Positions 12,391 to 36,938 of a stretch of 64,000 nt of DNA are shown here, piece by piece. This stretch comes from Candidatus Nitricoxidivorans perseverans. GTDB lineage: Bacteria > Pseudomonadota > Gammaproteobacteria > Burkholderiales > Rhodocyclaceae. The first letter of the stretch is position 1. Each line of letters begins with the position of its first letter. The position numbers and the translations under genes were made by a program. Under the pieces are notes generated by a model that did no database searches, had not been told where the DNA came from, and was given only the letters and a program-made list of their open reading frames with translations. The stretch covers positions 1-64,000 of the forward strand of contig CP107246.1 of the NCBI GenBank assembly GCA_030246985.1, given 5' to 3'.

Positions 12391-12463
12391 GTTGGGCCGG
12401 AAAATGCCTGTCCAGCCACACGCATTAAGAATATCCCGCCTAAACGACCTTGTTCGGATCTAA

Positions 12464-12507
12464 TCCAGTCTATTCGTATTTACTGGACGCTCTCGCTGTG
12501 CCATTAT
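12464..12507 (+). promoter_or_regulatory. Putative BREX operon promoter with overlapping inverted repeat
   Basis: TTTACT (12479-12484) and CATTAT (12502-12507) are spaced by exactly 17 bases and resemble sigma-70 -35 and -10 boxes. An inverted repeat TCCAGT (12464-12469) / ACTGGA (12482-12487) overlaps the -35 box, a natural place for a repressor. It lies 39 bases before the first BREX gene, and no other gap of comparable size interrupts the operon downstream. Confidence 0.45.
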
Positions 12508-12545
12508 GCGCAATTGTCGATGCATAACCACGGACGGGAAAACTC

Positions 12546-12746
12546 ATGTCAGATCGCTGGTTGTCAGTTGAAGAGATCGCTGAACACCTGGGAGTTAGCA
12601 AGGACACGGTATACGCTTGGATTTCAAAAAAAAGTATGCCGGCTCATCGCGTCGGGCGACTTTGGAAATTCCAGAAGGTCGAGGTCGATGTCTGGATCAA
12701 AGCCGGAGGTGCCAATGAAGAGCCTGTTAGCAGCGACGGCAAGTAA
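12546..12746 (+). CDS. Excisionase-like helix-turn-helix protein heading the BREX operon
   Basis: 66 residues, almost entirely one MerR/BldC-type HTH: LSVEEIAEHLGVSKDTVYAW, then the wing with HRVGRLWKFQKVEVDVWI. Proteins of this size bind DNA as dimers and act as local regulators or excision factors. It is the first gene of the operon, and its stop TAA overlaps the brxA ATG (TAATG at 12744-12748). The inverted repeat at 12464-12487 just upstream is a plausible operator, so I infer autoregulation of the BREX operon. It is not the WYL-type BrxR regulator known from some other BREX loci. Confidence 0.75.
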   Translation: MSDRWLSVEEIAEHLGVSKDTVYAWISKKSMPAHRVGRLWKFQKVEVDVWIKAGGANEEPVSSDGK

Positions 12747-13968: not shown

Positions 13969-13979
13969 GAACAGTGCAC

Positions 13980-17492: not shown

Positions 17493-17504
17493 GAAATCTG
17501 TCCG

Positions 17505-20173: not shown

Positions 20174-21321
20174 TTGACAGTCTCCACCTGAAAAACTTCG
20201 TTGCCTTCACCGACCTGACGATCGATTTCTCGTCTGGCATCAATATTATCGTTGGGGAAAACGGCACGGGTAAGACTCAGCTCCTCAAAGCCATCCTTGT
20301 CCTGTGTGCTCCAGCATCCCACGCACATGAAGAGGAGCAACCTGGCGCACAGCTGGCCCGCAAGCTGATCCGTCTATTTCACCCGCTAGGGGAAAATGTC
20401 GGAGAACTACGTCGTGCCGGTACTCGAGGCGAGGCGGTACTGAGTGCGATCTTTGCGCTGGACCAAAAAATCACCGCCAGATTCAGCGGCAATGCCACCG
20501 AAGTCAAAGTCAACAGGAGTGCTGGACAGGCCGTTCCCCCCGCCATATTTATCCCCACTAAAGAAGTGCTTTCTCTAGTACGCGGAATCACTGCCGAGCA
20601 ACCAGACCTTCCGACCATCGAGCGCATTTTTGACGACGGTTATCTCGATCTGGCCCAACTGCTTACAAAGGAAGGCATAGAAGATCTGGATAGCAAGGTT
20701 CAGCTCAATCCGCGTTTTGCCAGCATCGTGCCTCGCTTGGTTAACTTGATTGGCGGACGATATGAGCTTCACAACGGGCGGTTCTGTTTTCAAGCAGGCA
20801 CCTACGTAGAGAAACAGGGCAAGAGCAGTGCGGCGCAAAAGGCCGCGCAGAGTTTCCAGGATTCCAGCTTGCACTTCGTACCAGCAAAATCTCCGTTGTT
20901 ATCAAGCGGCATGACCGCCGAAGGTTTCCGCAAGATCGGTGTGCTGCAGCGCCTGCTTAGCAACGGCAGCCTCAACCCCGGAATTTCCGGCCCCCTGCTG
21001 TGGGACGAACCCGAATCCAACCTCAACCCCAAGCTGATGAAGGATTTGGTGCTCGCCCTGTTGGAACTGGCACGCAACGGCCAGCAAGTCGTCCTCGCCA
21101 CCCACGACTACGTGCTGCTCAAGTGGTTCGACCTGCTGATGGACAAGGGCGAGGGCGATCAGGTGCGCTTTCATGTACTGTCCCGCGACACGAAAACTGG
21201 AGAGGTTCTGCGTGACAGCATGGATGATTACCGTGCCATTGAACCGAATGCGATTGCTGATACCTTCAATGAACTCACGAAGGAACAAGTCGCCCGCAAG
21301 ATGGGGAGCTTGGGCAAATGA
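20170..21321 (+). CDS. OLD/SMC-like AAA ATPase inside split pglX
   Basis: 383 residues. Walker A is GENGTGKT at residues 29-36, preceded by the classic LKNFVAFTDLTIDF opening. An ABC-signature-like region (LSSGMTAEGFRKIGVLQRLL) precedes Walker B LLWDEPESNLNP (Asp279-Glu280), and a switch His sits in VVLATHDYVLL. These are the features of overcoming-lysogenisation/RecF-type ATPases, often the sensor or effector partner in defence systems. There is no TOPRIM nuclease; the nuclease function may lie in the next gene, which overlaps it (ATGA at 21318-21321). It belongs to the three-gene cassette that separates the pglX halves. Confidence 0.85.
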   Translation: MIDSLHLKNFVAFTDLTIDFSSGINIIVGENGTGKTQLLKAILVLCAPASHAHEEEQPGAQLARKLIRLFHPLGENVGELRRAGTRGEAVLSAIFALDQKITARFSGNATEVKVNRSAGQAVPPAIFIPTKEVLSLVRGITAEQPDLPTIERIFDDGYLDLAQLLTKEGIEDLDSKVQLNPRFASIVPRLVNLIGGRYELHNGRFCFQAGTYVEKQGKSSAAQKAAQSFQDSSLHFVPAKSPLLSSGMTAEGFRKIGVLQRLLSNGSLNPGISGPLLWDEPESNLNPKLMKDLVLALLELARNGQQVVLATHDYVLLKWFDLLMDKGEGDQVRFHVLSRDTKTGEVLRDSMDDYRAIEPNAIADTFNELTKEQVARKMGSLGK

Positions 21322-21863
21322 AGCTGCGCGAGCGAGACCTTGAAATCGACTTCACTAACGCCATTGACGCCCTCATCTTCGATCAGATGAAGGCGACTAT
21401 GCCGAATTACCACGGTATCGGCGAAATGCATCGTGTCGATTTTGTGGTGGAGCTGGCGGAAGCGATTCTGTTTGTCGAGGTCAAGGATCCCGGCAACCCC
21501 AAGGCGCAGGCTGAAGGGTTGGAAAAGTTCTATGGGGAATTGAAAGATGGCACCTTGGGCAACACCTTTGCTGCCAAATTCATTGATACCTTTTTGTATC
21601 GATGGGCTGAAGATCTGCTTCTCAAGCCAGTGCACTACATCAGTCTGGTGACGTTTGAAGACAGCGAACTCCTGCCGAATTTCTCAGACGAAATCGCCAA
21701 AAAGATTCCGCCAATGGGCAAATCGATGCCACGTTGGAAACGTCAGTTGGTAGAAAACTGCCAAGTATTCAATATTGAGCTGTGGAATCAAAGTTTCCCG
21801 AAATGGCCAGCTAGCCGTATCCAGCCCGGGGGCAGCGGAAGAAAAGTCAGGGAGGTCGCATGA
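21318..21863 (+). CDS. Unknown protein with a PD-(D/E)XK-like motif
   Basis: 181 residues, not recognised as a named family. Residues 40-58 read VDFVVELAEAILFVEVKDP: Asp41, then Glu54-Val-Lys56, the spacing and hydrophobic pattern of a PD-(D/E)XK nuclease core. An upstream Glu (GEMHRVD) completes a plausible metal site. The rest is predicted mixed alpha/beta, with a basic C-terminus (PGGSGRKVREVA). It is bracketed by the ATPase and the reverse transcriptase with 4-base overlaps on both sides, so it is probably a nuclease subunit working with one or both. The nuclease assignment is inference from the motif; the real activity could be different or lost. Confidence 0.55.
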   Translation: MKLRERDLEIDFTNAIDALIFDQMKATMPNYHGIGEMHRVDFVVELAEAILFVEVKDPGNPKAQAEGLEKFYGELKDGTLGNTFAAKFIDTFLYRWAEDLLLKPVHYISLVTFEDSELLPNFSDEIAKKIPPMGKSMPRWKRQLVENCQVFNIELWNQSFPKWPASRIQPGGSGRKVREVA

Positions 21864-24800
21864 TCTCTCTCGAAATGCTCGGCATGGCCTACCGAAAAGC
21901 CAAAGTTGATCTGTATTACTCGTCCCATGCCTCCCTGGATGCGATTGCTGACTACGAAGAAAACCTCCAAGCAAACCTTGCTGCACTGCTGGCTCGCATC
22001 AATGCGGAAGATGAATCCTGGGTGAAATCTTCAGATTTTGTCGGCACATGGACGCTCGCCACGAAGTCCGTTGATATGACCAGCTGGAAGCAGCTCAAAG
22101 AAGCGAGTCAAAACGGTTTGATATTTTCATCGCCGACAGATGAGTGGGAGCAGGCATGCACCGCGTTAGCGGCTCAAGAAAAGTACCAAAAACCAGATGC
22201 CGAATTCCGGCTGATGGCCAAATGCACTCTTGATTTTCATGTGTTATCCACGCTGTGGATGCTCGAAGTCGGCCATCTGTTCGATGCCAAGTTAACGAAA
22301 TCGGCTTATGGTAGCCGCCTGCGTCGAACGCAGGACAATAAGCAGATCAACGAACTTTCTCTCGGCACGTTCACACCCTATCTGAAGCCATTTCGGGATT
22401 GGCGCGATAACGGCATCACTGCCATGCGCACGGCCCTGAATGCCGGCAAGAAGATCATTGCGCTCACGGCTGATGTGACTTCGTTCTACCATGAACTCAA
22501 TCCGGGGTTCATGCTCGATCAGGCCTTCGTGAACGATGTGCTGGGGCTGGACCTCACCAAAGAACAGGCCAAGTTCAACAGTCTCTTTATCCATGCCTTG
22601 CAGGCTTGGGCAATGGGCACAGGTATGAAGAAGGGGCTTCCAGTTGGGTTGCCAGCATCCGCTGTCGTCGCCAATATCGCGCTGGTTGAGCTGGATCGCA
22701 TCATCGAGCAACAGATTGCCCCACTCTATTACGGCCGCTATGTTGACGACATTCTGCTGGTCATGGAAAACGGCGCGGGCATTCGTTCGACCGATCAATT
22801 ATGGGAATGGCTGTTTGCCCGTGCTGAAGGGAAGCTCATCTGGAGAAAGGGCCAGAAAGAGAACGAGAAAGTCATTTCGTTTCAGCCATCCTATCTGCAC
22901 CAAGGCGACAGCAAAAGCCAGATCCACTTTGCCAACGCGAAAAACAAGGTGTTCATGCTAGCCGATGAACCGGGCAAGACGCTGGTGGATGCTATTGCGC
23001 ACCAGATCCATGAGCGGGCCAGCGAATGGCGAGCCATGCCACGACTGCCGCGCTCCCCCAACCACGTCGGTACCGATCTACTGGCGGCGACACAAAGTGA
23101 TGGCGAAGCAGCCGACAACCTACGTAAGGCCGACGCCCTGACTATGCGTCGTGCCGGCTTTGCCATCAAGCTGCGTGACTTTGAAGCTTACGAGCGCGAC
23201 TTGCAACCCGATGCCTGGAAAGAACATCGTCGGGCCTTTTTTCGCGCATTCACCCAGCACGTGCTGGTGCTGCCGCAATTCTTCGATCTCGCCGTTTACC
23301 TGCCACGGGTGATTCGTCTGGCAACAGCCTGCGAAGACTTCGGCGACCTGCGCAAGATCATTGGTGCGCTTGAACAGATCTGCAAGCAAATCCAGGAGCA
23401 CTGCACCGTCAGTATCAAGGCTTGGCCTGACAATGCTGAGAAGCCGAATGCAGACAAGATGATCGCCCGTTGGCAGGAGCAGCTGCTCACGAGTATTCGT
23501 GAGAGCATCACCGCCGCATTCCCGCCTCACTTGTCCAAGACAGGTAAGCAGGCATGGGAAGAGCACATGGCGGATTACCACCCAACGATCGATTTTGTAG
23601 CCATGTTTTCCTGGCCGCTGTCGGTCAAAGGATTTCAAGCAAAGCAGGCGCGGTTGTTCTCGTTCGACCTTGCGCATATGCCATTCCGTTTTATCGGCCT
23701 GCCAGCCGAGATGGTGGCACAACGCGGCATTCCGGCCAAAAAGACTGTAACGAACTGCCACGAAGCATCTGAGCTACTGCCCAATACGGTATTGGAGGGC
23801 ACCCGGCAGCTCGCCAAATGGATCCGACTCAAGGGGCTACCGCATGGACTGCTGTTTGCAACGCGTCCCTTTAATCTGGCCGAACTGTTCATTCTGAACA
23901 AGGATGCCTATACCGAACAGGGGCAGGCGGCCATGCGGGCCGTAGTGCTGGCATTGCGTGGTTTCGGTCTCAACGAGAAGACTCCATGTTTCGATCAACA
24001 TGGCGTACTGCAGATTCCGGATGGAACCGTGTCTCGCAAACATGGCATCGCAGTATCGAGCTGGAAGACACGCCAAGACAGCTGGGCTGCCGCCGTTACC
24101 CGCTCGCCCGACCCGGATGCCGAACGCTATGCCCGGCTGAATCGCCTGCTGGATGGCGTAATCGCCGAGCCGAGGCACAGCCGTTATCTCATCCTGCCGG
24201 AATTGGCGCTGCCGGCACACTGGTTTATCCGCATCGCGCGCAAACTTCAAGGCCGGGGCATTTCGCTGATCACCGGCATTGAGTACTTGCATGCAGGCAA
24301 ATCTCGGGTGCGCAACCAAGTGTGGGCAGCGCTATCGCATGACGGTCTGGGTTTTCCATCCATCATGATCTATCGCCAGGATAAGCAACGCCCTGCATTG
24401 CACGAGGAGCTGGAGCTTCATCGATTGGCCGGCCGGAAAATGCAGCCAGCGGACAAGTGGACGAATGGCATTCCGCCGATCATCCAGCACGGCGACTTCC
24501 GCTTCGCCATGCTGGTGTGCAGCGAGCTGACCAACATCAGCTACCGCGCCGCCTTGCGCGGTAAAGTCGATGCCATTTTCGTTCCGGAATGGAACCAGGA
24601 CACAGACACCTTCCACTCGCTTGTTGAATCGGCTGCACTGGATGTGCATGCCTACATTATTCAGTGCAACGACCGGCAGTATGGGGATAGCCGAATCCGC
24701 GCGCCCTACAAGGACAGTTGGAAGCGCGATGTGCTGCGGGTCAAGGGAGGAATCACCGACTACTGCGTGATTGGTGAAATCGATGTGCTGGCCTTGCGAC

Positions 24801-24907
24801 GGTTCCAGAGCAGTTTCAGATCACCGACAGAACCGTTCAAGCCAGTGCCAGACGGATTTGAAATCAGTTATGGCCGCAAGGTGTTGCCGGCGGGAGAGAC
24901 AGAATGA
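21860..24907 (+). CDS. Reverse transcriptase-nitrilase fusion (DRT1/UG1-like)
   Basis: 1015 residues. The RT domain shows ALTADVTSFYHEL (Asp205, motif A), a GLPVGLPASAVVANIAL block (motif B) and RYVDDILLV (YVDD at 294-297, motif C). The C-terminal part is a carbon-nitrogen hydrolase domain: LILPELALPAHWF (Glu781), a Lys in the GRKMQPADKW region and FAMLVCSELTN (Cys887) form the expected Glu-Lys-Cys triad. RTs of the Unknown Group with a nitrilase C-terminus are known as defence-associated reverse transcriptases of type 1. A GGAGG box precedes the ATG. Both ends overlap neighbours by 4 bases, leaving no intergenic room for a retron-like non-coding RNA. What makes this example unusual is its place inside a split pglX. 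Confidence 0.9.
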   Translation: MISLEMLGMAYRKAKVDLYYSSHASLDAIADYEENLQANLAALLARINAEDESWVKSSDFVGTWTLATKSVDMTSWKQLKEASQNGLIFSSPTDEWEQACTALAAQEKYQKPDAEFRLMAKCTLDFHVLSTLWMLEVGHLFDAKLTKSAYGSRLRRTQDNKQINELSLGTFTPYLKPFRDWRDNGITAMRTALNAGKKIIALTADVTSFYHELNPGFMLDQAFVNDVLGLDLTKEQAKFNSLFIHALQAWAMGTGMKKGLPVGLPASAVVANIALVELDRIIEQQIAPLYYGRYVDDILLVMENGAGIRSTDQLWEWLFARAEGKLIWRKGQKENEKVISFQPSYLHQGDSKSQIHFANAKNKVFMLADEPGKTLVDAIAHQIHERASEWRAMPRLPRSPNHVGTDLLAATQSDGEAADNLRKADALTMRRAGFAIKLRDFEAYERDLQPDAWKEHRRAFFRAFTQHVLVLPQFFDLAVYLPRVIRLATACEDFGDLRKIIGALEQICKQIQEHCTVSIKAWPDNAEKPNADKMIARWQEQLLTSIRESITAAFPPHLSKTGKQAWEEHMADYHPTIDFVAMFSWPLSVKGFQAKQARLFSFDLAHMPFRFIGLPAEMVAQRGIPAKKTVTNCHEASELLPNTVLEGTRQLAKWIRLKGLPHGLLFATRPFNLAELFILNKDAYTEQGQAAMRAVVLALRGFGLNEKTPCFDQHGVLQIPDGTVSRKHGIAVSSWKTRQDSWAAAVTRSPDPDAERYARLNRLLDGVIAEPRHSRYLILPELALPAHWFIRIARKLQGRGISLITGIEYLHAGKSRVRNQVWAALSHDGLGFPSIMIYRQDKQRPALHEELELHRLAGRKMQPADKWTNGIPPIIQHGDFRFAMLVCSELTNISYRAALRGKVDAIFVPEWNQDTDTFHSLVESAALDVHAYIIQCNDRQYGDSRIRAPYKDSWKRDVLRVKGGITDYCVIGEIDVLALRRFQSSFRSPTEPFKPVPDGFEISYGRKVLPAGETE

Positions 24908-26685
24908 ATGAGATCAACAATAAGCAAACCGGGCAAGGCATGCAGCGGCATTTCTTCCACGCTTCAACGGCAGATTTTAATAAGGTTCCAGGGAGAGCAA
25001 TCGTCTATTGGGCGTCGGATTCGATTCTGAATATTTTCGATAAAAACCCATCTCTTTCTAAACAGATTGAAACAAGAGAAGGTCTGACAACTGGAAGCAA
25101 TAGTCTTTTTCTGAGGTTGTGGCATGAAGTATCCCTAAGAAAAATTGGCTTTCAAATACAAAACAACAACCAGGCACATAAGAGTGGGTGCCGATATTTT
25201 CCTTATGTCAAAGGAGGCGACTTCAGACGATGGTCGGGAAATTTTGAATATGTTGTTAACTGGTTCAATGACGGTGAGGAATTAAAGGCTTTTAAAGATC
25301 CAGCCACCGGTCGCGTACGATCACATAACTACAACGGGGATTACGCATTTAAGGCTGGATTCACTTGGTCTGGCATATCAAGCGGGACTTTTGCGGTTAG
25401 GAATGTCCCTTGTGGGTTTATGTTTGATGCGAAGGGGCCTATGGGTTTTTCGAATGAGCCCGAAAGGCAAGGGGAGCATCAGGCATTCTTGAATAGCGCT
25501 GTAACTAATCATCTATTGATGATGCTAGCCCCAACACTTGATTTCAAGCTTGGCCATGTGCTCAATCTGCCTACTGTAAAAAACATCCCTTGTAGCATCG
25601 AGCGCATAAGAAATTCGGCAGTTCAGATATCGTTGAGTGATTGGAATGCCAATGAAACATCGTGGAACTTCACTGAACTGCCTGTACTGCACACAAATTA
25701 CCGTCAGCCAAACCTCAAAACCACTTACTACAAGCTTCGTGATTCCTGGCGGAAAATAACTCAGGAGATGCAAGGCCTAGAGGAAGAAAACAACCGTATT
25801 TTTATCTATGCCTACGGCCTGAGGGATGAGTTGAGCTCTGAGGTCCCGCTGAGCGAGGTCACGCTAAACTGCAACCCGCACTATCGCTATGGCGGCGACA
25901 AGAATGAGGAAGAGCTTGAGGCCCAGCTACTCGCCGACACCATGCGTGAGCTCGTCTCCTATGCAGTGGGCTGCATGTTCGGCCGCTATGCTCTGGAAAA
26001 GCCAGGACTGATCCTTGCCAATCAGGGCGAAACGCTGGCGGACTACCTGCGCCAAGTGCCCGAACCGAGCTTTCCGGCGGACGACGACAACGTGATTCCG
26101 CTGCTTGATGATGACTGGTTCACCGATGACATCACGCTGCGCTTCCGCCAGTTTCTGCGTATAGCCTTCGGCGATGCGCACTACGAAGACAACCTAACCT
26201 TTATCGAGCAGGCGCTGAATGTGAAGGGCAAGCGCAACTACGGCCTGCGCGATTACTTCCTAGGCGAGTTTTACAACGATCACGTCAAGCGCTACAAAAA
26301 GCGCCCGATTTACTGGCTGTTCAGCAGCCCGAAAGGCAGTTTCAACGCGCTGATCTACCTGCACCGCTACCGCCCGGATACAGCCAGCGTCGTCCTGCAA
26401 TACCTGCGCGATTTCCGCAGCAAGTTGGTCAGCGAGCGCGATCATCAAGAGCAGATGAACATCAGCACCTCTGCCAGCCAGGGCGAGAAGACCAAGGCGC
26501 TGAAGCGGATCGAGGAACTGAAAAAGATCTTGGTCGAGCTGGACGACTACGAACGCGACACGCTCTACCCGCTGGCTACCCGGCAGGTCGCGCTTGATCT
26601 TGATGACGGTGTGAAGAGGAATTATGTCGAACTCGGCGCGGCCCTGAAGAAGATTCCGGGGCTGGATGCCAAGGATGAGGAGTGA
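24904..26685 (+). CDS. pglX: PglX C-terminal half: target-recognition and C-terminal domains (split)
   Basis: 593 residues. After a short new N-terminus (MNEINNKQTGQGMQR) it reads HFFHASTADFNKVPGRAIVY, matching where full-length PglX continues after its catalytic half. LTTGSNSLFLRLWHE, SGCRYFPYVKGGDFRRWSGN and the late block FLGEFYNDHVKRYKKRPIYW are typical of BREX PglX C-terminal regions. It has no methyltransferase motifs. A GGGAGA box stands about 7 bases before the ATG, which overlaps the RT stop. Roughly 24990-25780 (the target-recognition part) is visibly AT-rich (one 60-base line at 30% GC, another at 37%, against 53-57% after 26200). This suggests exchange of the recognition domain. 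Confidence 0.9.
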   Translation: MNEINNKQTGQGMQRHFFHASTADFNKVPGRAIVYWASDSILNIFDKNPSLSKQIETREGLTTGSNSLFLRLWHEVSLRKIGFQIQNNNQAHKSGCRYFPYVKGGDFRRWSGNFEYVVNWFNDGEELKAFKDPATGRVRSHNYNGDYAFKAGFTWSGISSGTFAVRNVPCGFMFDAKGPMGFSNEPERQGEHQAFLNSAVTNHLLMMLAPTLDFKLGHVLNLPTVKNIPCSIERIRNSAVQISLSDWNANETSWNFTELPVLHTNYRQPNLKTTYYKLRDSWRKITQEMQGLEEENNRIFIYAYGLRDELSSEVPLSEVTLNCNPHYRYGGDKNEEELEAQLLADTMRELVSYAVGCMFGRYALEKPGLILANQGETLADYLRQVPEPSFPADDDNVIPLLDDDWFTDDITLRFRQFLRIAFGDAHYEDNLTFIEQALNVKGKRNYGLRDYFLGEFYNDHVKRYKKRPIYWLFSSPKGSFNALIYLHRYRPDTASVVLQYLRDFRSKLVSERDHQEQMNISTSASQGEKTKALKRIEELKKILVELDDYERDTLYPLATRQVALDLDDGVKRNYVELGAALKKIPGLDAKDEE

Positions 26686-26692
26686 ATGTGGA

Positions 26693-27805
26693 ATGAATAC
26701 TCAAGCTGAAAATCCGCCGGAAGAGAAAATTGAGGACATTGAGGGAATAGGGAAGGACGAGGATGCCTCGTTCGGCGATTACCCTATTGATACCGTGCTG
26801 ATCCGCAATGAAAACCGCACTGTTCATGATGTTCTGCGAAGAATCGAAAAGGGAAGCTTCGTCATGGATCCCGACTTCCAGCGGGATTTCATTTGGCAGG
26901 AAGACAAGCAGAGCAAGTTGATCGAGTCCGTTCTGATGCGAATTCCCTTGCCGGTGTTCTACCTGGCAGAAAATTCCAAGGGGCAGATGGTGGTGGTGGA
27001 TGGCCTGCAGCGCCTGTCAACATTTCAACGCTTCGTCAAGAACGAATTTCGGCTCAAGCTTCCCGATCAACCTGAACTGAACAAGAAGAACTTTCAGGAT
27101 CTTTCGCCAAAACTTCAGAATCGCGTGGAGGACTGCAATCTGATTCTCTATGTGATCGATGCGAAGGTTCCGGCCCAGGCCTTGCTGGATATTTTCGAAC
27201 GCGTCAATAGCGGCCTTCCGCTCACGCGGCAGCAAATGCGCAATTGTTTGTACATGGGCCAGGCGACCCGCTTTCTCAAGGCGGAAGCCATTTCTCCGCT
27301 GTTTGTGCAAGCGACCGGTCGCAGTCTTGATCCGGCAACGATGAGAGATCGAGAACTCATCAATCGGTTTTGTGCCTTTCGGCTTTTAGGTCTTGATGAT
27401 TACCGTGGCGACATGGATGCTTTCCTGGCGCGAACGCTGGAATTCATGAATGCCCTTGAGGCTCCCAAGCTTGAAAAGTTGTCTTCTGAATTCAGAACGA
27501 GCCTGAAAAACAACGCAACGGTTTTTGGCAAACATGCTTTCCGAAAACACGCCCCGGGCCAGGATAGCCGCAACGTATTTAATGCTTCGCTTTGGGATGT
27601 GATGGCGACCGGTCTGTCTCGATATCCGGAACACTTGGTTGAGGCAAGGGCGGAACAGTTGAGAGCCGAGCTGCATCTCTTGCTGGAAGACCATGACTTT
27701 GTCGAATCCATCACTTTAGGCACTAACCAGGTCAATCGGGTCAAGTACCGATTTGCTCGTACGAAATCAATGTTTGAGGAGGTGTTCGGTGATCACGCAG
27801 ATTGA
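26693..27805 (+). CDS. DUF262 (GmrS-like, ParB-fold) protein
   Basis: 370 residues. After an acidic leader it shows the DUF262 signature: DPDFQRDFIWQEDKQSKLIE, SVLMRIPLPVFYLAE and VVVDGLQRLSTFQRF. The fold is ParB-like and, in GmrSD-type enzymes, the DGQQR-like motif (here DGLQR) supports nucleotide hydrolysis driving cleavage of modified phage DNA. There is no DUF1524 HNH domain in this chain, so it is a stand-alone N-domain. It starts 8 bases after the pglX-C stop and overlaps the following ATPase gene by 17 bases. It probably forms a unit with the next two genes; activity against modified DNA is inference. Confidence 0.82.
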   Translation: MNTQAENPPEEKIEDIEGIGKDEDASFGDYPIDTVLIRNENRTVHDVLRRIEKGSFVMDPDFQRDFIWQEDKQSKLIESVLMRIPLPVFYLAENSKGQMVVVDGLQRLSTFQRFVKNEFRLKLPDQPELNKKNFQDLSPKLQNRVEDCNLILYVIDAKVPAQALLDIFERVNSGLPLTRQQMRNCLYMGQATRFLKAEAISPLFVQATGRSLDPATMRDRELINRFCAFRLLGLDDYRGDMDAFLARTLEFMNALEAPKLEKLSSEFRTSLKNNATVFGKHAFRKHAPGQDSRNVFNASLWDVMATGLSRYPEHLVEARAEQLRAELHLLLEDHDFVESITLGTNQVNRVKYRFARTKSMFEEVFGDHAD

Positions 27806-28928
27806 TCTTCGGTACTTCAAGTGTTTTGAGCTGCTCAAGCTTCCGTTGGCGGACTTGACGCTTCTTTCTGGCTCCAATGCGTCAGGCAAATCGTCGATTT
27901 TGCAGGCCTTGGTCCTATTGCATCAAACCATGCGTGAGCATGAATGGTCGACAAGGCTTGTGTTGAACGGCGATGCGCTCAAGCTCGGCACGGTTGCCGA
28001 CGTGGTCGACAAAGTTCATGGGCGTCGTAAGGTCGAGATTGCTCTGACTGCTGACGGGAAACATTTTCGCTGGTTCTTTTCGGGAGAGCGCTCCGAGATG
28101 TCGTTTGCGGTCGACCGGGTTGAAGTCGGCAGCGTTGTAAATGATGCACCGTCAAAATTGCAATACCTGCTTCCCCATGCTGATGATGAAGCCGTCTCGA
28201 CGCTGGCTCGGAGTTTGCGCAGCCTGAGCTACATCACGGCTGAGCGAATTGGGCCGCGCGAGTTCTACCCATTGGAGGATCGACAAATCGCCACGGTCGT
28301 GGGACCTGCGGGCGAGCATGCGGTGAGCCTCCTGCATCTAGGCCGAGATGAGAAAGTGCTCGAGGGGTTGGTGTTGGATGGAGTGCCGATAACCCGACTG
28401 AGACAGGTCGAAGCCAGGATGAAGGTATTTTTCCCGGGTTGCGGTTTGGCGGTAGAGCAAGTACCTCGGGTCAATGCCGTCACACTCGGGCTGCGGACTT
28501 CCGATGACACCGATTTTCACCGTCCGATTCATGTTGGCTTTGGCTTGACTCAGGTCTTACCGATTGTTGTGGCTGCGCTCTCGGCAAGCAAAGGGGATCT
28601 ATTGCTGATTGAAAATCCGGAAGTGCATCTCCACCCTGCCGGGCAGGCACTTATGGGGCAATTCTTGGCCGACGTCGCACGCGCGGGCGTGCAGGTGATT
28701 GTCGAAACCCACAGTGACCACATTCTTAATGGCGTTCGCCGTGCCGTCAGATCACAACGACTGGAGCCTGAGCAGGTAGCGATCCACTTCTTCAGACCGC
28801 GGATTGCGGATGAAGCTCAGGCGATTAGTCCGCAACTGGACAAGTCCGGGAATATTGACGTTTGGCCGGAAGGATTTTTTGATCAGTTCGACAAGGATAT
28901 GAACCATTTCGCCGGATGGGGTGAGTGA
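27789..28928 (+). CDS. DUF3696-type AAA ATPase
   Basis: 379 residues from a GTG with a strong GAGGAGG box, inside the end of the DUF262 gene. ITQIDLRYFKCFELLKLPLA leads to Walker A GSNASGKSS. The region VGFGLTQVLPIVVAALSA is the ABC-signature part, LLLIENPEVHLHPAGQ is Walker B and VIVETHSDHILNGVRRAV the switch His. The C-terminal extension with VAIHFFRP and GNIDVWPEGFFDQFDKDM matches the DUF3696 tail. Such ATPases are frequently paired with DUF262 or nuclease genes in defence islands. The next gene overlaps its stop. A role as the ATP-driven sensor or motor of a small guest system is inferred. Confidence 0.85.
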   Translation: MITQIDLRYFKCFELLKLPLADLTLLSGSNASGKSSILQALVLLHQTMREHEWSTRLVLNGDALKLGTVADVVDKVHGRRKVEIALTADGKHFRWFFSGERSEMSFAVDRVEVGSVVNDAPSKLQYLLPHADDEAVSTLARSLRSLSYITAERIGPREFYPLEDRQIATVVGPAGEHAVSLLHLGRDEKVLEGLVLDGVPITRLRQVEARMKVFFPGCGLAVEQVPRVNAVTLGLRTSDDTDFHRPIHVGFGLTQVLPIVVAALSASKGDLLLIENPEVHLHPAGQALMGQFLADVARAGVQVIVETHSDHILNGVRRAVRSQRLEPEQVAIHFFRPRIADEAQAISPQLDKSGNIDVWPEGFFDQFDKDMNHFAGWGE

Positions 28929-29883
28929 CTTGGAACTCCTGGTCAACGATCTGTCCATTGGCGGGCAATTTCCTGATATTCCCTCGTTCCGAGCTGCTAT
29001 TAGTCGCGTGATGAACATGCGGACTATCGCGCGACAATTCGGGCGTGAATTGCACTGTCACAGAAATCTGACTCATGCCCAGGTGACCAGGGATCTGGCA
29101 ATGCCGCAGGCAATTCAGCGTTTGGAGCAGGCTGAAAAAAATGCTTTGATGCAGTGGCTTACTCGGCTTGGACCGTTTTGGGACGATGTACGCATGCATG
29201 GTCCTGACGATTACCTGGAATGTGCTGAGCAGGTGGTGACTGATACCGCCATCGGTGAAGCATCGTTTCGCTGTCTGCATGGGACCGATTATCATTTGGT
29301 CAGCCTGACTCCCTCCTCTTGGGAAAACTCGCCCCTGTCCGTCTGGTGGCGATGCGCCGGTGGCGATGATCTCAACGTTGAGGTTGCAAACCATATATCG
29401 CTGGAAGATCTCGAAGCCGCCTTACGTTTGGCGCCTGAGCCGATAGAGTCTTGGGAGCAGTTAGCCCGAGTATCACGTGCGCGGTTTCCCAATCTGATTT
29501 TCGCCACCGACAGCTTTGAGCCTCTTCGAGGCCTACCTTTTTCGCCAGGTGTGGTCCATAGAATCATTGAACGAATTGATGTTTTGGAACGCTTGCAATG
29601 CTGCTTTGATGAGAACGGAGAACGAACACCCGAGGGACATCGTTTGTATCAGGAACATTTCACCGGCAACAAAGCCTGGTTTTCAGATTCTTCCGATACC
29701 GAGATGAATGAGTTTCGGTCCGAGCTGACTTTTAAGCATCCTGAAATCGAGGGCGAAACTTTGTTTTGTACTATGCACGGCAAAGTGAAAACACCCCAAA
29801 TACGTATTCATTTTTCGTGGCCAGTCCGCGCAGACACGCCACTTTATGTTGTTTATGTCGGCCCCAAGATTACGAAGCGGTGA
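28921..29883 (+). CDS. Unknown third component of the DUF262-DUF3696 unit
   Basis: 320 residues from a GTG that overlaps the ATPase stop by 8 bases. I recognise no family. It is mixed alpha/beta and soluble, with acidic patches. Possible landmarks are RLGPFWDDVRMHGPDDYLE, a Glu-rich stretch ISLEDLEAALRLAPEPIESW, and a C-terminal beta-rich part ending IRIHFSWPVRADTPLYVVYV. No clear nuclease or nucleotide-binding motif can be seen. The tight overlap with the DUF3696 gene makes a three-protein system likely. Base composition resembles the two genes before it, suggesting they arrived together. Confidence 0.6.
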   Translation: MSDLELLVNDLSIGGQFPDIPSFRAAISRVMNMRTIARQFGRELHCHRNLTHAQVTRDLAMPQAIQRLEQAEKNALMQWLTRLGPFWDDVRMHGPDDYLECAEQVVTDTAIGEASFRCLHGTDYHLVSLTPSSWENSPLSVWWRCAGGDDLNVEVANHISLEDLEAALRLAPEPIESWEQLARVSRARFPNLIFATDSFEPLRGLPFSPGVVHRIIERIDVLERLQCCFDENGERTPEGHRLYQEHFTGNKAWFSDSSDTEMNEFRSELTFKHPEIEGETLFCTMHGKVKTPQIRIHFSWPVRADTPLYVVYVGPKITKR

Positions 29884-29908
29884 TCCACCGAAGGAATTGA
29901 CGAAGCCC

Positions 29909-31063
29909 ATGCCGTCCAATGTTGATACTGCCAAGCAGACCTTCGAGCACTTAGTCGGTGCCATCCGTCAGGTGCATGACGAGCTGACGGCACAGGCGAG
30001 CCGGGCCGTCAATGCCAGCCTCACCCTGCGCAACTGGATGATTGGTTTCCACGTGGAGGAGTACGAGCGCCGGGGCGTGGATCGTGCCGAGTATGGCGAC
30101 AAGTTGATGGACAGGCTGGCCGACAGCCTGACCCAAATTGGCGTGTCGCGTTGCGATCGGCGAGAAATCTACCGCTACCGCCAGTTCTATCTGGCCTATC
30201 CACAGATTGTGGAGTCAGTGACTCCACAATTGCAGCCGTTGATTGGACTACTGAATTTGGCTGGTGCAGATTCCCCACCCGCCGGCGCGCCGACGATTGT
30301 GGAGACGTCTCCACAATTCAAAATCGACGGCAAGACCTTGATTTCCAGGCTCTCGTTCTCGCATATCGCGGAGCTGCTCAACTTGGAAGACGCCACCAAG
30401 CGAAGTTTCTACGAGGTGGAGTGCATTCAGGGCAATTGGTCGGTACGCGAACTGAAGCGGCAGATCCACAGCCTCTACTATGAGCGCTCCGGCCTTTCGA
30501 CTGACAAGAAAAAGCTCTCCGAATTGGCCCGGCAAGGTGCGGAGCTGGCATCACCAGCCTTGGCGGTGCGTGACCCCTATGTGTTCGAGTTCTTGGGCCT
30601 GACGCCTCGGGAGGTCATGAGCGAGTCCCATTTGGAAGACAATCTCATCGGCAAGATCGAGGAATTTCTGCTGGAGCTGGGCCACGGCTTCTGTTTCGAG
30701 GCGCGGCAGAAGCGAATTCTGATTGGCGACGAACACTACTTCATTGATCTGGTCTTCTACCACCGCATCCTGAAATGCCATGTGTTGGTGGAACTGAAAC
30801 TGGCCGAGTTCAGTCATGAAAATATCGGCCAGCTCAATACCTATGTGAGCTGGTACAAGAAAAACATGATGCGGGAAGGCGATAACCCACCCATTGGCAT
30901 CCTGCTGTGCACCCACAAGAAGCATTCGCTGGCCGAGTTTGCGTTAGCCGGCATGGACAACCAGCTTTTCGTTTCCAAGTACCAGCTGGAGTTGCCCAAG
31001 CGCGAAGAAATCGAGCGCTTTCTTGCTGAAAAACTCAGAGAGGCTGGAGCTTCCGATGAGTGA
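29909..31063 (+). CDS. DUF1016 family PD-(D/E)XK nuclease (YhcG-like)
   Basis: 384 residues. The N-terminal DUF1016_N domain contains LTLRNWMIGFHVEEYERRG, followed by a helical DNA-binding-like middle (YRYRQFYLAYPQI). The C-terminal DUF1016 nuclease core has FIDLVFYHRILKCHVLVELK: Asp in FIDLVF and Glu-Leu-Lys provide the catalytic triad. The ATG at 29909 has an AAGGAA box upstream. It lies in the BREX operon just before pglZ, with which it overlaps (ATGAGTGA at 31056-31063). YhcG-like nucleases are frequent passengers of restriction and BREX loci; their exact contribution is unknown. It may add a cleavage activity to the system. Confidence 0.87.
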   Translation: MPSNVDTAKQTFEHLVGAIRQVHDELTAQASRAVNASLTLRNWMIGFHVEEYERRGVDRAEYGDKLMDRLADSLTQIGVSRCDRREIYRYRQFYLAYPQIVESVTPQLQPLIGLLNLAGADSPPAGAPTIVETSPQFKIDGKTLISRLSFSHIAELLNLEDATKRSFYEVECIQGNWSVRELKRQIHSLYYERSGLSTDKKKLSELARQGAELASPALAVRDPYVFEFLGLTPREVMSESHLEDNLIGKIEEFLLELGHGFCFEARQKRILIGDEHYFIDLVFYHRILKCHVLVELKLAEFSHENIGQLNTYVSWYKKNMMREGDNPPIGILLCTHKKHSLAEFALAGMDNQLFVSKYQLELPKREEIERFLAEKLREAGASDE

Positions 31064-33554
31064 GGGCAAGATAGGCCAGGCCCTGAGCCGGTTGTTCGAC
31101 AAGCACCGCATCGTCTTCTGGTACGACACCAAGCAAGAGTTGCGCGCCGACTATGTCGCTCTGGATATCCCGGGCGTCGAGAAGATCGAGTTGGCGAACA
31201 ACGAGTTTGGCATCAAGCACCTCATCCTGCGCCAGCAGCCGGACCAGAAATTCCTTCTCTATCGCGACGGTCCGCAACAGCCGGATTTGGAGAACTGGTT
31301 GCTGGACGTTCTACTGGCCCATGGCGAGTTCCGCACCGATCAGGTGGCATTGTGGCTGGCCGAGCTGGACCTTGGCCCTGCATTTGCTGAAGTAGTACAG
31401 GCTCACGCCGAATTCTTTGGCGCCAGCAAGCGTAAGGATGCGTTGAAACGCCTGCTCAAGAGCGACGATTCTGCCTCGACGATTCGCCTTAAGTTGCTGG
31501 CCGTGTGTGCCGGGACCGAACCACGGCTGGACGTGATACTGGAGGCTCTGCTCGCCGATTTGGCGGAAGGTACTGATGAGCGGATTCGGTTAATTGTCCG
31601 CTGCGGCTTGAGTAACTTCCTGTGGCAACAAATGTTGCGCAGCTACGGCTATCAATCCGCAACGCCGGGTCTGCGCGACTTCGTCATCGAACTATTCAAG
31701 TCCTGCTATGCGATGGGTACCAACGGCACATCCAAGCTTTCCGCCGAGGCGTTGGTCTTCCTGAAGCGATGGAAGGACAGCCGCCAGTATGCGGCCAGCT
31801 TTGAGGTGCTTTCCGAGCAATGCGCCGACGCGCTTGGCATTGAGCAGGATCTGGACCGGCGTGATTTTCGCGAGCTGTTGGAACTGGACTATTTCGAACT
31901 TATCGACCGCAAGACAATCACCGACTTGGTCCAGGGCGTGGCAACTCGCACTTTGGGCGCCGGCGATGTGGCCTTGTGGGTGCGCCAGCGCCGGCAGGGA
32001 CACTGGTATGCCCAATATGCCGACCTGTACAGCGCGGTTGAAGTCGCCGCAACCTTTATCCATACGCTGGAGGGCGCGCGACTGGAGATGACCTCGCTGG
32101 CGGATGGCGTGCAGAACTACGCACGCAGTTGGTTCAAGATCGACCAGATGTATCGCAAGTTCATTTTCCATACCCGAAAATCCGGGCTTTCGTCCTTGCT
32201 TGCCGCACTGAACACACAGGTGGAAAACCTGTACAGCAACAGCTATTTGGTCAAGCTCAACAACAACTGGCAGGTGTTCGTTGATGCGGCGACGCAATGG
32301 GATGCCACACCCATCCCGATGCAGCGGCACTTTTTTGGCCGTTGGGTGAAGCCTTTCATCGAGCGCAAGGGAAAAGTTTGCGTGCTGATTTCCGATGCCT
32401 TCCGCTATGAAATCGGTGAGGAGTTGCAAAGTCTGATGCGCCAGGAAGATCGCTTCGAGGCCGAACTGGAGCCGGCGCTCGCCATGTTGCCGAGCTATAC
32501 GCAGTTAGGCATGGCGGCATTGTTACCGAACACAACGCTGACCCTGCTGAACGATGAGACCGGGATGGCCTTGGTCGATGGCCAAAGTGCACAGGGCACA
32601 GCCAATCGGGGCAAGATACTGGCCTCCGTTGTTACGGCGGCTACTGCGATTCAGGCGGAAGAACTCATGCAGATGGGGCGCGACGAATCACGCGCCCTGG
32701 TGCGTGACAATGAGGTGATCTACGTTTATCACAACCTGATCGACAAGACAGGTGACACGCGGGATACCGAAGAGCGTGTGTTTGCGGCGGCCGAGGATAC
32801 GCTGCAAGAGCTGATTCGGATCATCAAGAAGCTGGCCAATGCCAACGCCAGCAACATACTGGTGACGGCAGATCACGGATTCCTCTACCAAAACCGGGTA
32901 TTGGAAGAAAGCGATTTCCTCGCATGCGAACCGGAAGGCGATGACATCTTTTATCGCAATCGTCGTTTCGTGCTGGGAACAGGGCTCCACAGCAGTGGCA
33001 GCTTCAAGACCTTCATGCCGGCACAACTGGGACTTGAGGGTACGGTCGAGGTACAAATTCCAAAGTCCATCAACCGCCTGCGCCAGAAAGGTTCCGGCAG
33101 CCGCTTTGTCCATGGCGGCGCGACCTTGCAGGAGGTGGTCATTCCGGTGCTGCGCATCAACAAGAAACGTCAGAGCGATGTTTCGCGGGTTGAAGTGGAG
33201 ATCATCAGCGGTGCAGGAAAAACCATTACCTCGGGGCAGGTCGCGGTTGTGCTTTATCAGGCACAGGCCGCAACGGATAAGTTGCAGGGTCGCAAGTTAC
33301 GCGGCGGCATCTATACGCAAGCCGGCGAACTGATTTCCGACCAGCATGAGCTGGCCTTTGACCTGACTTCGGACAACTCGAGGGAGCGAGAAATACCTGT
33401 GCGCTTCGTGTTAAGCCGCAAGGCTGATGAGGCCAACGGCCAGCAGGCGGTTCTTCGCCTCGAGGAGTTGGTGGATGGGACGTCGCATTACCGCGAGTAC
33501 AAGTCGCTGCGTTACACGATTCGCCGGTCGTTCACCAGCGACTTCGATTTCTGA
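31056..33554 (+). CDS. pglZ: PglZ, BREX-1 phosphatase-like component (type A)
   Basis: 832 residues, normal for BREX-1 PglZ. The N-terminus reads LSRLFDKHRIVFWYDTKQEL, a hallmark of this type. The alkaline-phosphatase-like core follows: KVCVLISDAFRYEIGEELQS with the metal-binding Asp and Arg, then MLPSYTQLGMAALLPNTTLT and ILVTADHGFLYQN with Asp-His ligands. A C-terminal beta domain ends in TIRRSFTSDFDF. PglZ is a core component found in all BREX types and is essential for defence. The start ATG overlaps the DUF1016 stop. brxL follows after 11 bases. Confidence 0.94.
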   Translation: MSEGKIGQALSRLFDKHRIVFWYDTKQELRADYVALDIPGVEKIELANNEFGIKHLILRQQPDQKFLLYRDGPQQPDLENWLLDVLLAHGEFRTDQVALWLAELDLGPAFAEVVQAHAEFFGASKRKDALKRLLKSDDSASTIRLKLLAVCAGTEPRLDVILEALLADLAEGTDERIRLIVRCGLSNFLWQQMLRSYGYQSATPGLRDFVIELFKSCYAMGTNGTSKLSAEALVFLKRWKDSRQYAASFEVLSEQCADALGIEQDLDRRDFRELLELDYFELIDRKTITDLVQGVATRTLGAGDVALWVRQRRQGHWYAQYADLYSAVEVAATFIHTLEGARLEMTSLADGVQNYARSWFKIDQMYRKFIFHTRKSGLSSLLAALNTQVENLYSNSYLVKLNNNWQVFVDAATQWDATPIPMQRHFFGRWVKPFIERKGKVCVLISDAFRYEIGEELQSLMRQEDRFEAELEPALAMLPSYTQLGMAALLPNTTLTLLNDETGMALVDGQSAQGTANRGKILASVVTAATAIQAEELMQMGRDESRALVRDNEVIYVYHNLIDKTGDTRDTEERVFAAAEDTLQELIRIIKKLANANASNILVTADHGFLYQNRVLEESDFLACEPEGDDIFYRNRRFVLGTGLHSSGSFKTFMPAQLGLEGTVEVQIPKSINRLRQKGSGSRFVHGGATLQEVVIPVLRINKKRQSDVSRVEVEIISGAGKTITSGQVAVVLYQAQAATDKLQGRKLRGGIYTQAGELISDQHELAFDLTSDNSREREIPVRFVLSRKADEANGQQAVLRLEELVDGTSHYREYKSLRYTIRRSFTSDFDF

Positions 33555-33565: not shown

Positions 33566-35692
33566 ATGGAAGCAGGAATGACCGTTGATGCCAGGGTGGG
33601 CACCGCGCTTGACGATAAGATCAACCAGCATTTTGCCGGCCTGGTGGTGCGCAAGGATCTGGTCAAGACCGTCAAAGGCAACGCGATCGTCCCGACTTAT
33701 GTTTTGGAGTATCTGCTCGGCCAGTATTGCGCGACCAATGACGAGGCGACCATTCAGACAGGGATCGAGACGGTAAAAGACATCCTCCGCCTGCACTACG
33801 TACATCGCAATGAGGCGGGATTGATCCGCTCGACCATCAAGGAGAAGGGCCGGCACAAGGTCATTGACCGCATCAGCGTGTCACTCAATGACAAGGCGGA
33901 TGTGTACGAGGCCGAATTTGCCAACTTGGGCATCAAGCAGGTGCTGATCGACTCCGCAACGATCAAGGCACACCCCAAGCTGCTGGTTGGCGGAGTCTGG
34001 TGCATTGCTGATGTTGAATATGAATTCTCTGAAGACAAGGGTGCTTCACCTTGGATCATGGCTTCTCTCAAGCCAATCCAGTTGTCCCAGTTCGACTTCG
34101 ACGGGTATGTAACTGCGCGTCGGCAGTTCACGACCGATGAGTGGATAGATCTGTTGATCCAGAGCATTGGTTTCAATCCGCAAATGTTTGGCCATCGCAA
34201 CAAGCTCTGCCAGTTGGTGCGGCTGATCCCATTCTGTGAGCGCAACTACAACCTGATCGAGCTCGGCCCAAAGGGTACTGGCAAATCGCATATCTATTCC
34301 GAGTTTTCGCCTCACGGAATATTGATCTCGGGCGGCGAAGTGACGGTGCCCAAGCTGTTCGTGAACAATTCGTCCGGCAAGTTGGGCCTGGTTGGGTATT
34401 GGGATGTCGTGGCGTTCGACGAGTTTGCTGGCAAGCAGAAGCGGGTGGACAAGGCGCTGGTGGACATCATGAAGAACTACATGGCCAACAAGTCTTTCTC
34501 ACGCGGGGTGGAGACGCTGGGAGCCGAGGCATCCATGGTTTTTGTCGGCAACACAGAGCATACGGTGCCGTATATGCTCAAGCACTCGGACCTGTTCGAC
34601 CCGCTGCCCGAGAAGTTCCACGATTCTGCGTTCCTTGACCGGGTTCATTACTACATCCCCGGATGGGAAGTGGACATCATCCGCGGCGAGATGTTTTCCA
34701 GCGGCTACGGCTTCGTCGTGGACTATCTTGCCGAAATTCTGCGTTCGCTGCGCAGCCACGATTTTTCGGACCGGTATCAGGCGCTTTTCACCTTGTCATC
34801 GGATATTTCGACACGCGATCGTGATGGCATTCACAAGACCTTTTCTGGCTTGATGAAGATTCTCTTCCCCCACGGCGAGGCAACGCCGGCGGAAATCGAG
34901 GAGGTACTGAAGTTCTCCATCGAGGGGCGCAAACGGGTTAAGGACCAGTTGCTGCGCATCGACACGACCTACGCCAAGGTTCGCTTTGCCTATGAGGATA
35001 AGTCGGGCAAGCAGCAGGCAGTCACCACACTGGAGGAAGACGAGTATGCCGGCGCCTACCACAAGGTAGTGATAGCCGAGCCGAACCAGGCCAGCGGTGC
35101 GGTGCCGGTAGATGCTGCTTCGCCAATGGAGACCGAACAGGTGCCAGCTTCGCCGGCAAGACCGATTCCGACGGAATCAGAACTTCGCGAACAGCACCTA
35201 GTTTGGCAGGAAAACCAGCGCGGCCTGACCTTCGACAAGCTGTTTGGCCCTTACCTAAAAGATGCACGACAAATCACGATCACCGATCCCTACATCCGAC
35301 TTTTCCACCAGGCTCGCAATCTCATGGAACTGATGGAAACGCTGGCAAGACTGAAGCCGGTAGAGGATGAAATGGCGGTCCACCTCGTGACGATCGAAGA
35401 TGACTTCAAGGGTGACCAGCAGAGAGACAACCTCCAGCGAATTGCCGACGCTTGTGCTGCGGTCGGCATCCGGTTTACTTGGGAATTTGACGCCAGTGGC
35501 ACCATCCATGCTCGACATATCGTCACCGATCATGGCTGGAAGATATTGCTCGACCGCGGCCTCGATGTATTTCAGCGATATGAGATGAACGATGCCTTCG
35601 ATTTCGCCAATAGGCTTCAGCAACATCGACAATGCAAGGCGTTCGAGGCGACGTTTATCAGGAATCGGGATGCCACTCGGGAGAGTAGCTAA
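33566..35692 (+). CDS. brxL: BrxL, Lon-like AAA+ BREX component
   Basis: 708 residues, slightly above the usual length. The N-terminal part is followed by the AAA+ module with Walker A GPKGTGKSH (from residue 234), VVAFDEFAGKQKRVDKALVD as Walker B, and a remnant Lon-like domain. The C-terminal block (LTFDKLFGPYLKDARQITIT, DPYIRLFHQARNLMELMETL, RHIVTDHGWKILLDRGLD) is a MIT_C/phospholipase-D-like fold typical of full-length BrxL. BrxL forms DNA-binding ring complexes and is the terminal gene of type 1 BREX. Its stop overlaps the start of a truncated fic gene (TAATG). Confidence 0.94.
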   Translation: MEAGMTVDARVGTALDDKINQHFAGLVVRKDLVKTVKGNAIVPTYVLEYLLGQYCATNDEATIQTGIETVKDILRLHYVHRNEAGLIRSTIKEKGRHKVIDRISVSLNDKADVYEAEFANLGIKQVLIDSATIKAHPKLLVGGVWCIADVEYEFSEDKGASPWIMASLKPIQLSQFDFDGYVTARRQFTTDEWIDLLIQSIGFNPQMFGHRNKLCQLVRLIPFCERNYNLIELGPKGTGKSHIYSEFSPHGILISGGEVTVPKLFVNNSSGKLGLVGYWDVVAFDEFAGKQKRVDKALVDIMKNYMANKSFSRGVETLGAEASMVFVGNTEHTVPYMLKHSDLFDPLPEKFHDSAFLDRVHYYIPGWEVDIIRGEMFSSGYGFVVDYLAEILRSLRSHDFSDRYQALFTLSSDISTRDRDGIHKTFSGLMKILFPHGEATPAEIEEVLKFSIEGRKRVKDQLLRIDTTYAKVRFAYEDKSGKQQAVTTLEEDEYAGAYHKVVIAEPNQASGAVPVDAASPMETEQVPASPARPIPTESELREQHLVWQENQRGLTFDKLFGPYLKDARQITITDPYIRLFHQARNLMELMETLARLKPVEDEMAVHLVTIEDDFKGDQQRDNLQRIADACAAVGIRFTWEFDASGTIHARHIVTDHGWKILLDRGLDVFQRYEMNDAFDFANRLQQHRQCKAFEATFIRNRDATRESS

Positions 35693-35847
35693 TGGCGAGC
35701 ACGCTAAAGCTTTTGCATGATGGCTCTCTATCCATCTCACCGGCCACAGCTTGGTATCTCGCGGATCTGGGCGAATTCCGCAGCAAGCAGGAGCTGCCCA
35801 CCTACCCTAACTTGGTTGCGAGTTTCTCAGCTTGCAAATGGGTGTAG
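35692..35847 (+). pseudogene. Truncated Fic family gene at the end of the BREX operon
   Basis: Only 51 codons. Residues 1-35 (..LLHDGSLSISPATAWYLADL.. then ..SKQEL) match the N-terminal region of Fic/DOC-type AMP-transferases often found after brxL. From about position 35797 the frame runs into the antisense of the integrase 3' end and stops at 35845. The HPFxxGNGR catalytic motif is lost. The break lies within about ten bases of the integrase stop, so it was made when the integrase end of the island was joined to this operon. Confidence 0.6.
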
Positions 35848-36842: not shown

Positions 36843-36938
36843 GTCCAAGTGTCCCCGTTTTGTCCCCGTTATTGATTATGGAGATGGTAGATCACTCTTA
36901 AAGCCGCGTCAATACTGGTTTTACAAGAAGATAATTTA

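Follow-up and report, generated by a model that had tools for sequence, protein, structure and literature searches.

The first 64,000 nucleotides of contig CP107246.1 from Candidatus Nitricoxidivorans perseverans (this whole stretch is called the window here) hold a type 1 bacteriophage exclusion (BREX) operon and, between its pglX and pglZ genes, three overlapping genes, nsnA, nsnB and nsnC, that are the subject of this analysis. Judged by family models, the trio is Menshen (nsnABC), an already named antiphage system, probably in its PIN-like/RelE-like type. It is probable, in our view, that this guest of BREX uses NsnA and NsnB to sense infection and to release NsnC, an effector of the RelE type; which cue, complex and target it would use we infer from domain content and conservation, both of which were observed directly.

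The trio and its published relatives

The three genes run on the + strand from the ATG of nsnA at 26693 to the stop codon of nsnC at 29883, exactly where the initial annotation had read three tightly overlapping genes. The product of nsnA (26693-27805; 370 residues) combines a DUF262/GmrS-like ParB-fold domain with an all-helical C-terminal domain; nsnB (27789-28928; 379 residues, GTG start, in an open reading frame that opens at TTG 27753) encodes an ABC ATPase of the OLD/PtuA type with a C-terminal DUF3696; and nsnC (28921-29883; 320 residues, GTG start) encodes a two-domain putative effector. Counted from GTG 27789, nsnB shares its first 17 nt with nsnA; its last 8 nt are shared with nsnC, and only 7 nt separate nsnA from the stop codon of the preceding pglX gene (26685). 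Because this leaves little space for a promoter of its own, and because a consensus scan of 12300-31500 (which other promoter types escape) finds a sole forward sigma-70 site, at 12948, the trio is probably transcribed together with the BREX operon.

Family identity and gene order are established: all three proteins match PADLOC models nearly full length (NsnA, E 1.5e-115; NsnB, 8.7e-105; NsnC, 2.9e-124, subfamily PDLC03896), in the same order and orientation as in Menshen, from which the present copy differs in being nested in a BREX operon. The gene names nsnA, nsnB and nsnC are those of the Menshen components. Among 14 control genomes, the NsnC model is specific (0 matched) and the NsnA model alone is unspecific (5 matched).

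In NsnA, DUF262 (PF03235, E 3.9e-24, about residues 35-186) is the sole Pfam match at E up to 0.1; its DGLQR motif is part of a nucleotide-binding signature in which DG-QR is kept in 38 of 39 alignment rows. The rows behind this count and those given below for NsnB contain repeat contigs (L020 and L041 share one contig, as do L021 and L048). Neither DUF1524/HNH nor any other nuclease family is matched in NsnA or NsnB at E up to 0.1, in line with the suspicion that the usual HNH part is missing. The AlphaFold2 model of NsnA has a mean predicted local distance difference test score (pLDDT) of 79.3; the score drops under 50 for residues 1-34 and in two short loops. Its top Foldseek match is BrxU (E 1.4e-3), and the alignment with BrxU 7p9k (Z 9.4, 271 residues aligned) joins model residues 37-366 to chain residues 1-419 only; the root-mean-square deviation (rmsd) of 16.5 means that the domains are oriented differently. 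The ParB-like part aligns with SspE (Z 7.6), ParB (Z 5-6) and sulfiredoxin. Given the BrxU-like fold, the preserved DG-QR motif and the lack of a recognizable nuclease domain, NsnA resembles a GmrS-like sensor that lacks the cutting part.

NsnB was predicted to be a DUF3696 ATPase, and this is borne out: Pfam recognizes DUF3696 (PF12476, E 3.8e-13) along with AAA_15 (PF13175) and AAA_21 (PF13304). By phmmer, the protein matches OLD 6p74 (3.4e-8), PtuA-named chains (from 1.3e-4) and, marginally, AriA (0.047); among PADLOC models, it also matches AriA (5.8e-27) and PtuA (from 3.1e-12). The nucleotide-binding residues are preserved here as well: G28, N30, G33 and K34 of the Walker A motif are kept in 39 of 40 rows, S35 in 38, and E278 and H308 in all 40.

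Is the trio then a distinct, unnamed system, as had been proposed? The literature argues otherwise. The passages on Menshen in PMC10952713, which attribute the system to Millman et al. 2022, describe a DUF262 gene needed for phage resistance, and the section on ptuXYZ in Gerdes 2025 (PMC11980606) describes a DUF262 protein that lacks DUF1524, an ATPase like PtuA and a third protein with PIN-like and YoeB-like parts. The trio appears to share these architectures: NsnA is a DUF262 protein free of DUF1524, NsnB a PtuA-like P-loop ATPase, and NsnC a probable counterpart of the third. The name Menshen has 0 occurrences in the ptuXYZ paper, and its ptuXYZ section describes no nesting in BREX or restriction-modification (R-M) operons (PMC11980606); nevertheless, the matching architectures imply that Menshen and ptuXYZ would be one module. 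A new restriction system was accordingly rejected as an explanation, the trio being covered by existing family models and published descriptions.

Other defense systems share parts of this design. Like PARIS (AriA-AriB), the trio pairs an ATPase, which matches the PADLOC AriA model, with a putative toxic effector, but it has an extra DUF262 protein, and NsnC matches no TOPRIM or AriB sequence model. With GmrSD, BrxU and TgvAB it shares the DUF262 sensor domain and residence inside BREX or type I R-M operons; unlike them, it has ATPase and RelE-like partners and no HNH/DUF1524 that could be found. NsnB resembles PtuA of Septu (PtuA-PtuB), whereas Pfam finds no HNH nuclease family in the trio.

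NsnC as a putative RelE-type effector

The third protein had been called unrecognized, which holds for Pfam, where NsnC has no match at E up to 0.1, but not for PADLOC, where it belongs to a named family and is matched by NsnC models only, with no TOPRIM or AriB model among them. A weak Pfam match (Thioredoxin_12, E 0.0036) appears in 1 of 24 aligned NsnC members, and a search of the NsnC profile against PDB sequences returned two chance-level matches only. Within the close clade, NsnC also changes faster than its partners: identity between the window and its BREX-borne relative L024 (below) is 82% for NsnA, 84% for NsnB and 67% for NsnC.

The structure model of NsnC is confident (AlphaFold2 pLDDT 92.8; predicted template modelling score 0.77), and VIA structural alignment splits it in two. 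The N-terminal domain (residues 1-178; 28921-29454, + strand) is modeled with a Rossmann/PIN-like fold: 22 of the 50 structures listed align with residues 1-174, a mixture of Rossmann-like folds, the best being Chp1 3tix (Z 6.2), whose matched part we take to be PIN-like. The C-terminal domain (residues 186-320; 29476-29880, + strand) appears RelE/YoeB/ParE-like (BECR) by VIA and by conservation. The other 28 structures listed match residues 188-320, and all are of the RelE/YoeB/YafQ/ParE/HigB type or the RelE-like part of Cami1 (Z 3.4-6.1), family names that we partly assume: YafQ 9lew (Z 6.1, rmsd 3.6, 89 residues aligned), ParDE 6x0a (5.9), YoeB 2a6r (5.8), RelBE 4fxe (5.5), HigBA 5ifg (4.1) and Cami1 8phj (3.4). 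No TOPRIM or HNH structure was recognized among the 50, an absence that excludes nothing. The modeled RelE-like fold carries conserved basic residues: all 24 rows have H286, G287, K288, R295, Y312 and G314, and nearly all have H297 and K316. To the eye, these residues resemble what we take to be the RelE pattern, K-x-K ... YRLVY ... GKR. The N-terminal domain is probably not catalytic, and the homologous PtuZ is described, in the part of that paper devoted to it, as having a PIN-like fold without catalytic residues (PMC11980606).

Each VIA match is weak by itself, since every Z is below 8; the assignment rests on how consistent the matches are, on the nearly complete stretch of the toxin domain that they cover and on what has been published for PtuZ. 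On these grounds, the C-terminal half of NsnC is most likely RelE-like, a likeness that is structural only, with no profile match. Several observations weigh against an RNA-cutting effector in NsnC. Besides the low Z-scores, Foldseek found nothing in PDB at E <= 0.001 (nor among viral structures at the same threshold), and hhalign found nothing (Prob 0.4) between the C-terminal alignment of NsnC and a ParE/RelE-family alignment of 26 sequences, drawn from 29 toxin-family stretches after removal of three that could not be read cleanly. Proteins with a RelE fold may also inhibit gyrase instead of cutting RNA. Furthermore, Menshen is said, in the passages that concern it, to have a predicted OLD nuclease with a TOPRIM domain (PMC10952713), a family that Pfam (E up to 0.1) finds in none of the three proteins; and the DUF262 protein PtuX is taken as a putative nuclease in the ptuXYZ section (PMC11980606), which would shift the effector step to NsnA.

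How might the parts work together? NsnA, through its DUF262 domain, which should bind nucleoside triphosphates, would detect a sign of phage, probably DNA that is modified or otherwise foreign; NsnB, the ATPase, would keep NsnC inactive and, upon this cue, release or activate it; and the RelE-like domain of NsnC would then cleave mRNA or block another RelE/ParE-type target, shutting the cell down before phage release, an abortive outcome. BREX would deal with unmodified DNA, and the trio would form a second layer against phages that escape it. The alternative closest to the initial annotation is a system like type IV restriction, in which NsnA recognizes and cuts modified phage DNA, NsnB is a motor or switch and NsnC an accessory. 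DUF262 is indeed described as the modification-sensing half of GmrSD, BrxU and SspE, and NsnA aligns to BrxU across the sensor and helical domains; TgvAB, a DUF262 pair embedded in a Vibrio cholerae type I R-M operon, is reported to act against phages with modified DNA (PMC11411939) and gives an experimental precedent for DUF262 genes housed in such an operon, and the nuclease labels given to PtuX (PMC11980606) and to the OLD component of Menshen (PMC10952713) point the same way. Yet the BrxU alignment ends at chain residue 419, NsnA and NsnB match no nuclease family, and the conserved toxin-like domain lies in NsnC; because it is the only such domain found, DNA cutting, the restriction role first envisaged, is less likely than a RelE-type effector, and we regard a type IV-like system as unlikely.

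The BREX operon and its guests

The placement of the trio inside a BREX operon was recognized correctly at the outset: PADLOC and Pfam identify brxA, brxB, brxC, a split pglX, pglZ and brxL in one operon, all on the + strand. The series begins with brxA (12746-13360; PADLOC BrxA, 3.8e-74), brxB (13348-13968; BrxB, 8.2e-65) and brxC (13965-17492; BrxC, E 0), continues with an N-terminal half of pglX that holds the methyltransferase domain (18365-20173; PglX, 3e-280, positions 1-593 of 607) and a C-terminal half directly upstream of nsnA (24904-26685; PglX, 9.6e-203, positions 618-1173 of 1174), and ends, past the trio, with pglZ (31023-33554; PglZ, E 0; PF08665) and brxL (33566-35692; BrxL, E 0; PF13337), the product of which has a C-terminal PLD-like domain (PF16565), also found in the BrxL of L024.

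The operon houses several guests besides the trio: Bro-N/PDC-S13, HEC-02A/B, RT-nitrilase and a DUF1016/YhcG nuclease. The Bro-N domain protein (PDC-S13) lies at 17505-18365, between brxC and pglX. The two PglX halves, of 602 and 593 residues, jointly span the whole protein (18365-26685), and between them stand HEC-02A, HEC-02B and the RT-nitrilase gene, joined by 4-nt overlaps; the last (21860-24907) encodes a defense-associated reverse transcriptase of 1015 residues with a nitrilase-like part (PADLOC RT_UG5-nitrilase, E 0). The gene for the DUF1016/YhcG protein, a PD-(D/E)XK nuclease (PDC-S02; 29846-31063, + strand; PF06250, 1.6e-55; PF17761, 7.6e-27), stands between nsnC and pglZ; by eye, its likelier start is ATG 29909.

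A split PglX is unusual among the relatives seen, because the strong intact ones are single frames. Among 274 genomes of the class, 7 besides the window's own have a match to the C-terminal half: three strong intact matches are open frames of 1177, 1179 and 1166 residues, a fourth strong match is broken by stops, and the remaining ones are weak. The PglX of L024 is likewise a single frame, of 1360 residues, with about 150 extra residues within the N-terminal half.

The operon also has a distinct composition: G+C content is 52-59% over 12-36 kb, 58-63% in the first 12 kb and 64-69% past 44 kb. A RepB-like partition gene (11603-12343) precedes brxA, and an integrase gene (35802-36848, - strand) follows just after brxL; together, these genes bracket the operon of lower G+C, which suggests that the BREX region is a mobile island.

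Distribution and nesting of the cassette

A survey outside BREX, proposed as a check on the trio, has now been carried out. Genome contigs were scanned with the NsnC alignment, using one peptide pattern as a filter; of 83 stretches, 25 were confirmed, a sample in which 24 loci are distinct (L044, and a plasmid copy, L008, repeat the L043 region) and four (L030, L033, L036 and L047) are close to the end of a contig. In 24 of the 25 loci, the genes stand next to each other on one strand in the order A-B-C; three of these 24 are damaged or cut, nsnB being interrupted in L029, nsnA cut by the contig end in L030, and nsnC in two frames near the contig end in L047. In L029 (7541-10002), a Mutator-family transposase gene lies on the opposite strand inside nsnB, with an Eco57I-type methylase and a ResIII helicase upstream. 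The remaining locus, L045, has a lone short NsnC-like gene (9971-10744) after type I R-M genes, a remnant or a solitary form; nsnA and nsnB were not found within the 20.7 kb examined. A BREX context was seen in just 1 of the 25 loci, L024.

Plasmids tell a similar story. NsnC occurs in 3 of 72,556 plasmid records, each time preceded by nsnA and nsnB and outside BREX, and in two of them (L007 and L009) the trio stands alone. Since 24 of 25 genome loci are contiguous and only 1 of 25 is in BREX, the trio is an autonomous cassette, and its reading as one conserved guest system stands. An obligatory link to BREX was rejected because, as far as the DNA shows, BREX is absent around 24 of the 25 genome loci as well as around the copies on plasmids. 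In the class to which the window belongs, the NsnC model matched 5 of 369 genomes, two of them strongly besides the window's own; none of 50,697 phage records has NsnC; viral contigs gave 33 pattern matches to the NsnC alignment, with 0 confirmed; and distant blastn of the trio DNA against E. coli genomes found no match.

Independent occurrence of the three genes, which would have spoken against a single system, was rejected on the strength of the 24 contiguous loci; there are, however, NsnA-NsnB pairs whose third gene is diverged or of another kind, and a single NsnB-like gene lacks a DUF262 neighbor. Matches to NsnB led to 10 further plasmid regions, nine with a DUF262-ATPase pair and a following open frame (cut by the record end in L016) and one, L015, with an ATPase that has no DUF262 neighbor. 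Among ten third proteins (the nine from plasmids and that of L023), 5 match the NsnC profile at E <0.01 in a ten-sequence search (L011, L017, L023, L010 and L012) and the other 5 do not; by this measure, the third gene appears to be the variable part of the module. The third proteins of L016 (5053-5721) and L018 (4954-5676), with a weak match (E 0.024) or none to the NsnC profile, show by eye a motif of the H-D-R-Y type, a hint that other effectors may take this place.

Nesting between the genes of a restriction operon is seen in the window and in 3 of the 25 loci. In L024, the order is pglX - Shedu - trio - pglZ - brxL; in L041, a type I R-M operon, it is hsdM-hsdS-trio-hsdR; and in L048 it is SNF2 helicase - methylase - a 284-residue protein - trio - ResIII helicase. 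The guests of L024 differ from those in the window: a Schlafen/AlbA_2 protein gene lies between brxC and pglX, and a Shedu gene before the trio (811-2331, 2421-6503 and 6493-7779 along this stretch of L024). Five more loci (L029, L038, L042, L045 and L047) have the trio within one open reading frame of type I or Eco57I/ResIII genes. Two others have related neighbors: in L032, a PLD-SNF2 helicase directly follows the trio on its 3' side, and L036 carries a HEPN-DUF499 protein on the opposite strand. No restriction gene was seen next door in the other 15 of 25, an upper bound, given partial annotation; among these 15, though, L043/L044 have an SNF2-methylase pair about 4 kb downstream, and in L026 a PD-(D/E)XK protein adjoins the trio. 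Neighbors were classed by single-sequence phmmer against proteins of the window, L020 and L021, by Pfam for 50 chosen neighbors, and by eye.

A tree of 21 trios covers the window and 20 of the 25 loci (left out were L044, a repeat, and four loci in which a protein is absent, truncated or disrupted: L029, L030, L045 and L047). The BREX pair, L041 and L048 fall into three separate groups (support 0.98-1.0), each with non-nested relatives; the window and L024 are sisters, so the BREX cases count once. The simplest account of this sample, taken as a raw count, is that nesting has three separate origins.

Does the trio then watch over its hosts? As a guard, it would monitor BREX or R-M function (sensing, for example, phage anti-restriction proteins) and kill the cell if this function is blocked, as PARIS does with Ocr. 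Nesting in BREX, type I R-M and SNF2-methylase-ResIII operons across three clades, with five more loci within one open reading frame, favors this idea, as does the PADLOC AriA match of NsnB, though AriA itself is only marginal by phmmer; PARIS is stated to sense Ocr in the relevant part of a 2026 BREX survey (PMC12839542). Against it, most loci adjoin no restriction gene by the partial annotation at hand, two plasmid copies stand alone, and defense genes cluster generally, so that nesting may serve only co-expression and co-transfer. We therefore hold such a guard to be quite improbable. A bolder variant would make this Menshen lineage a portable guard, inserted time and again into BREX, type I R-M and SNF2-methylase-ResIII operons and firing a RelE-type toxin when a phage blocks the host operon; it is decidedly unlikely as well. 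Least plausible is an addiction module of the toxin-antitoxin kind, with a RelE-type NsnC toxin held by NsnA and NsnB and serving mainly to stabilize an island or plasmid: the RelE-like domain would suit it, as would the plasmid-borne copies and those that neighbor recombinase or integrase genes, but two large partners that bind nucleoside triphosphates are atypical antitoxins and Menshen is reported as antiphage (PMC10952713, in its Menshen passages), which makes it very improbable.

The preferred reading, sensing by NsnA and NsnB followed by release of a RelE-type NsnC, sits comfortably with what is reported elsewhere: the 2026 survey, as far as its discussion of these modules goes, finds that OLD-ATPase modules are frequent at BREX loci and suggests that they act as backup effectors (PMC12839542), a picture that the present locus fits. 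The "unknown protein" of the trio thereby becomes a probable RelE-type effector, and Menshen, ptuXYZ and the present BREX guest are suggested to be one module. One cassette in three unlike restriction operons offers a concrete test of whether embedded defenses are co-inherited or functionally coupled; if the portable-guard variant were true, anti-restriction proteins would become suicidal for the phage.

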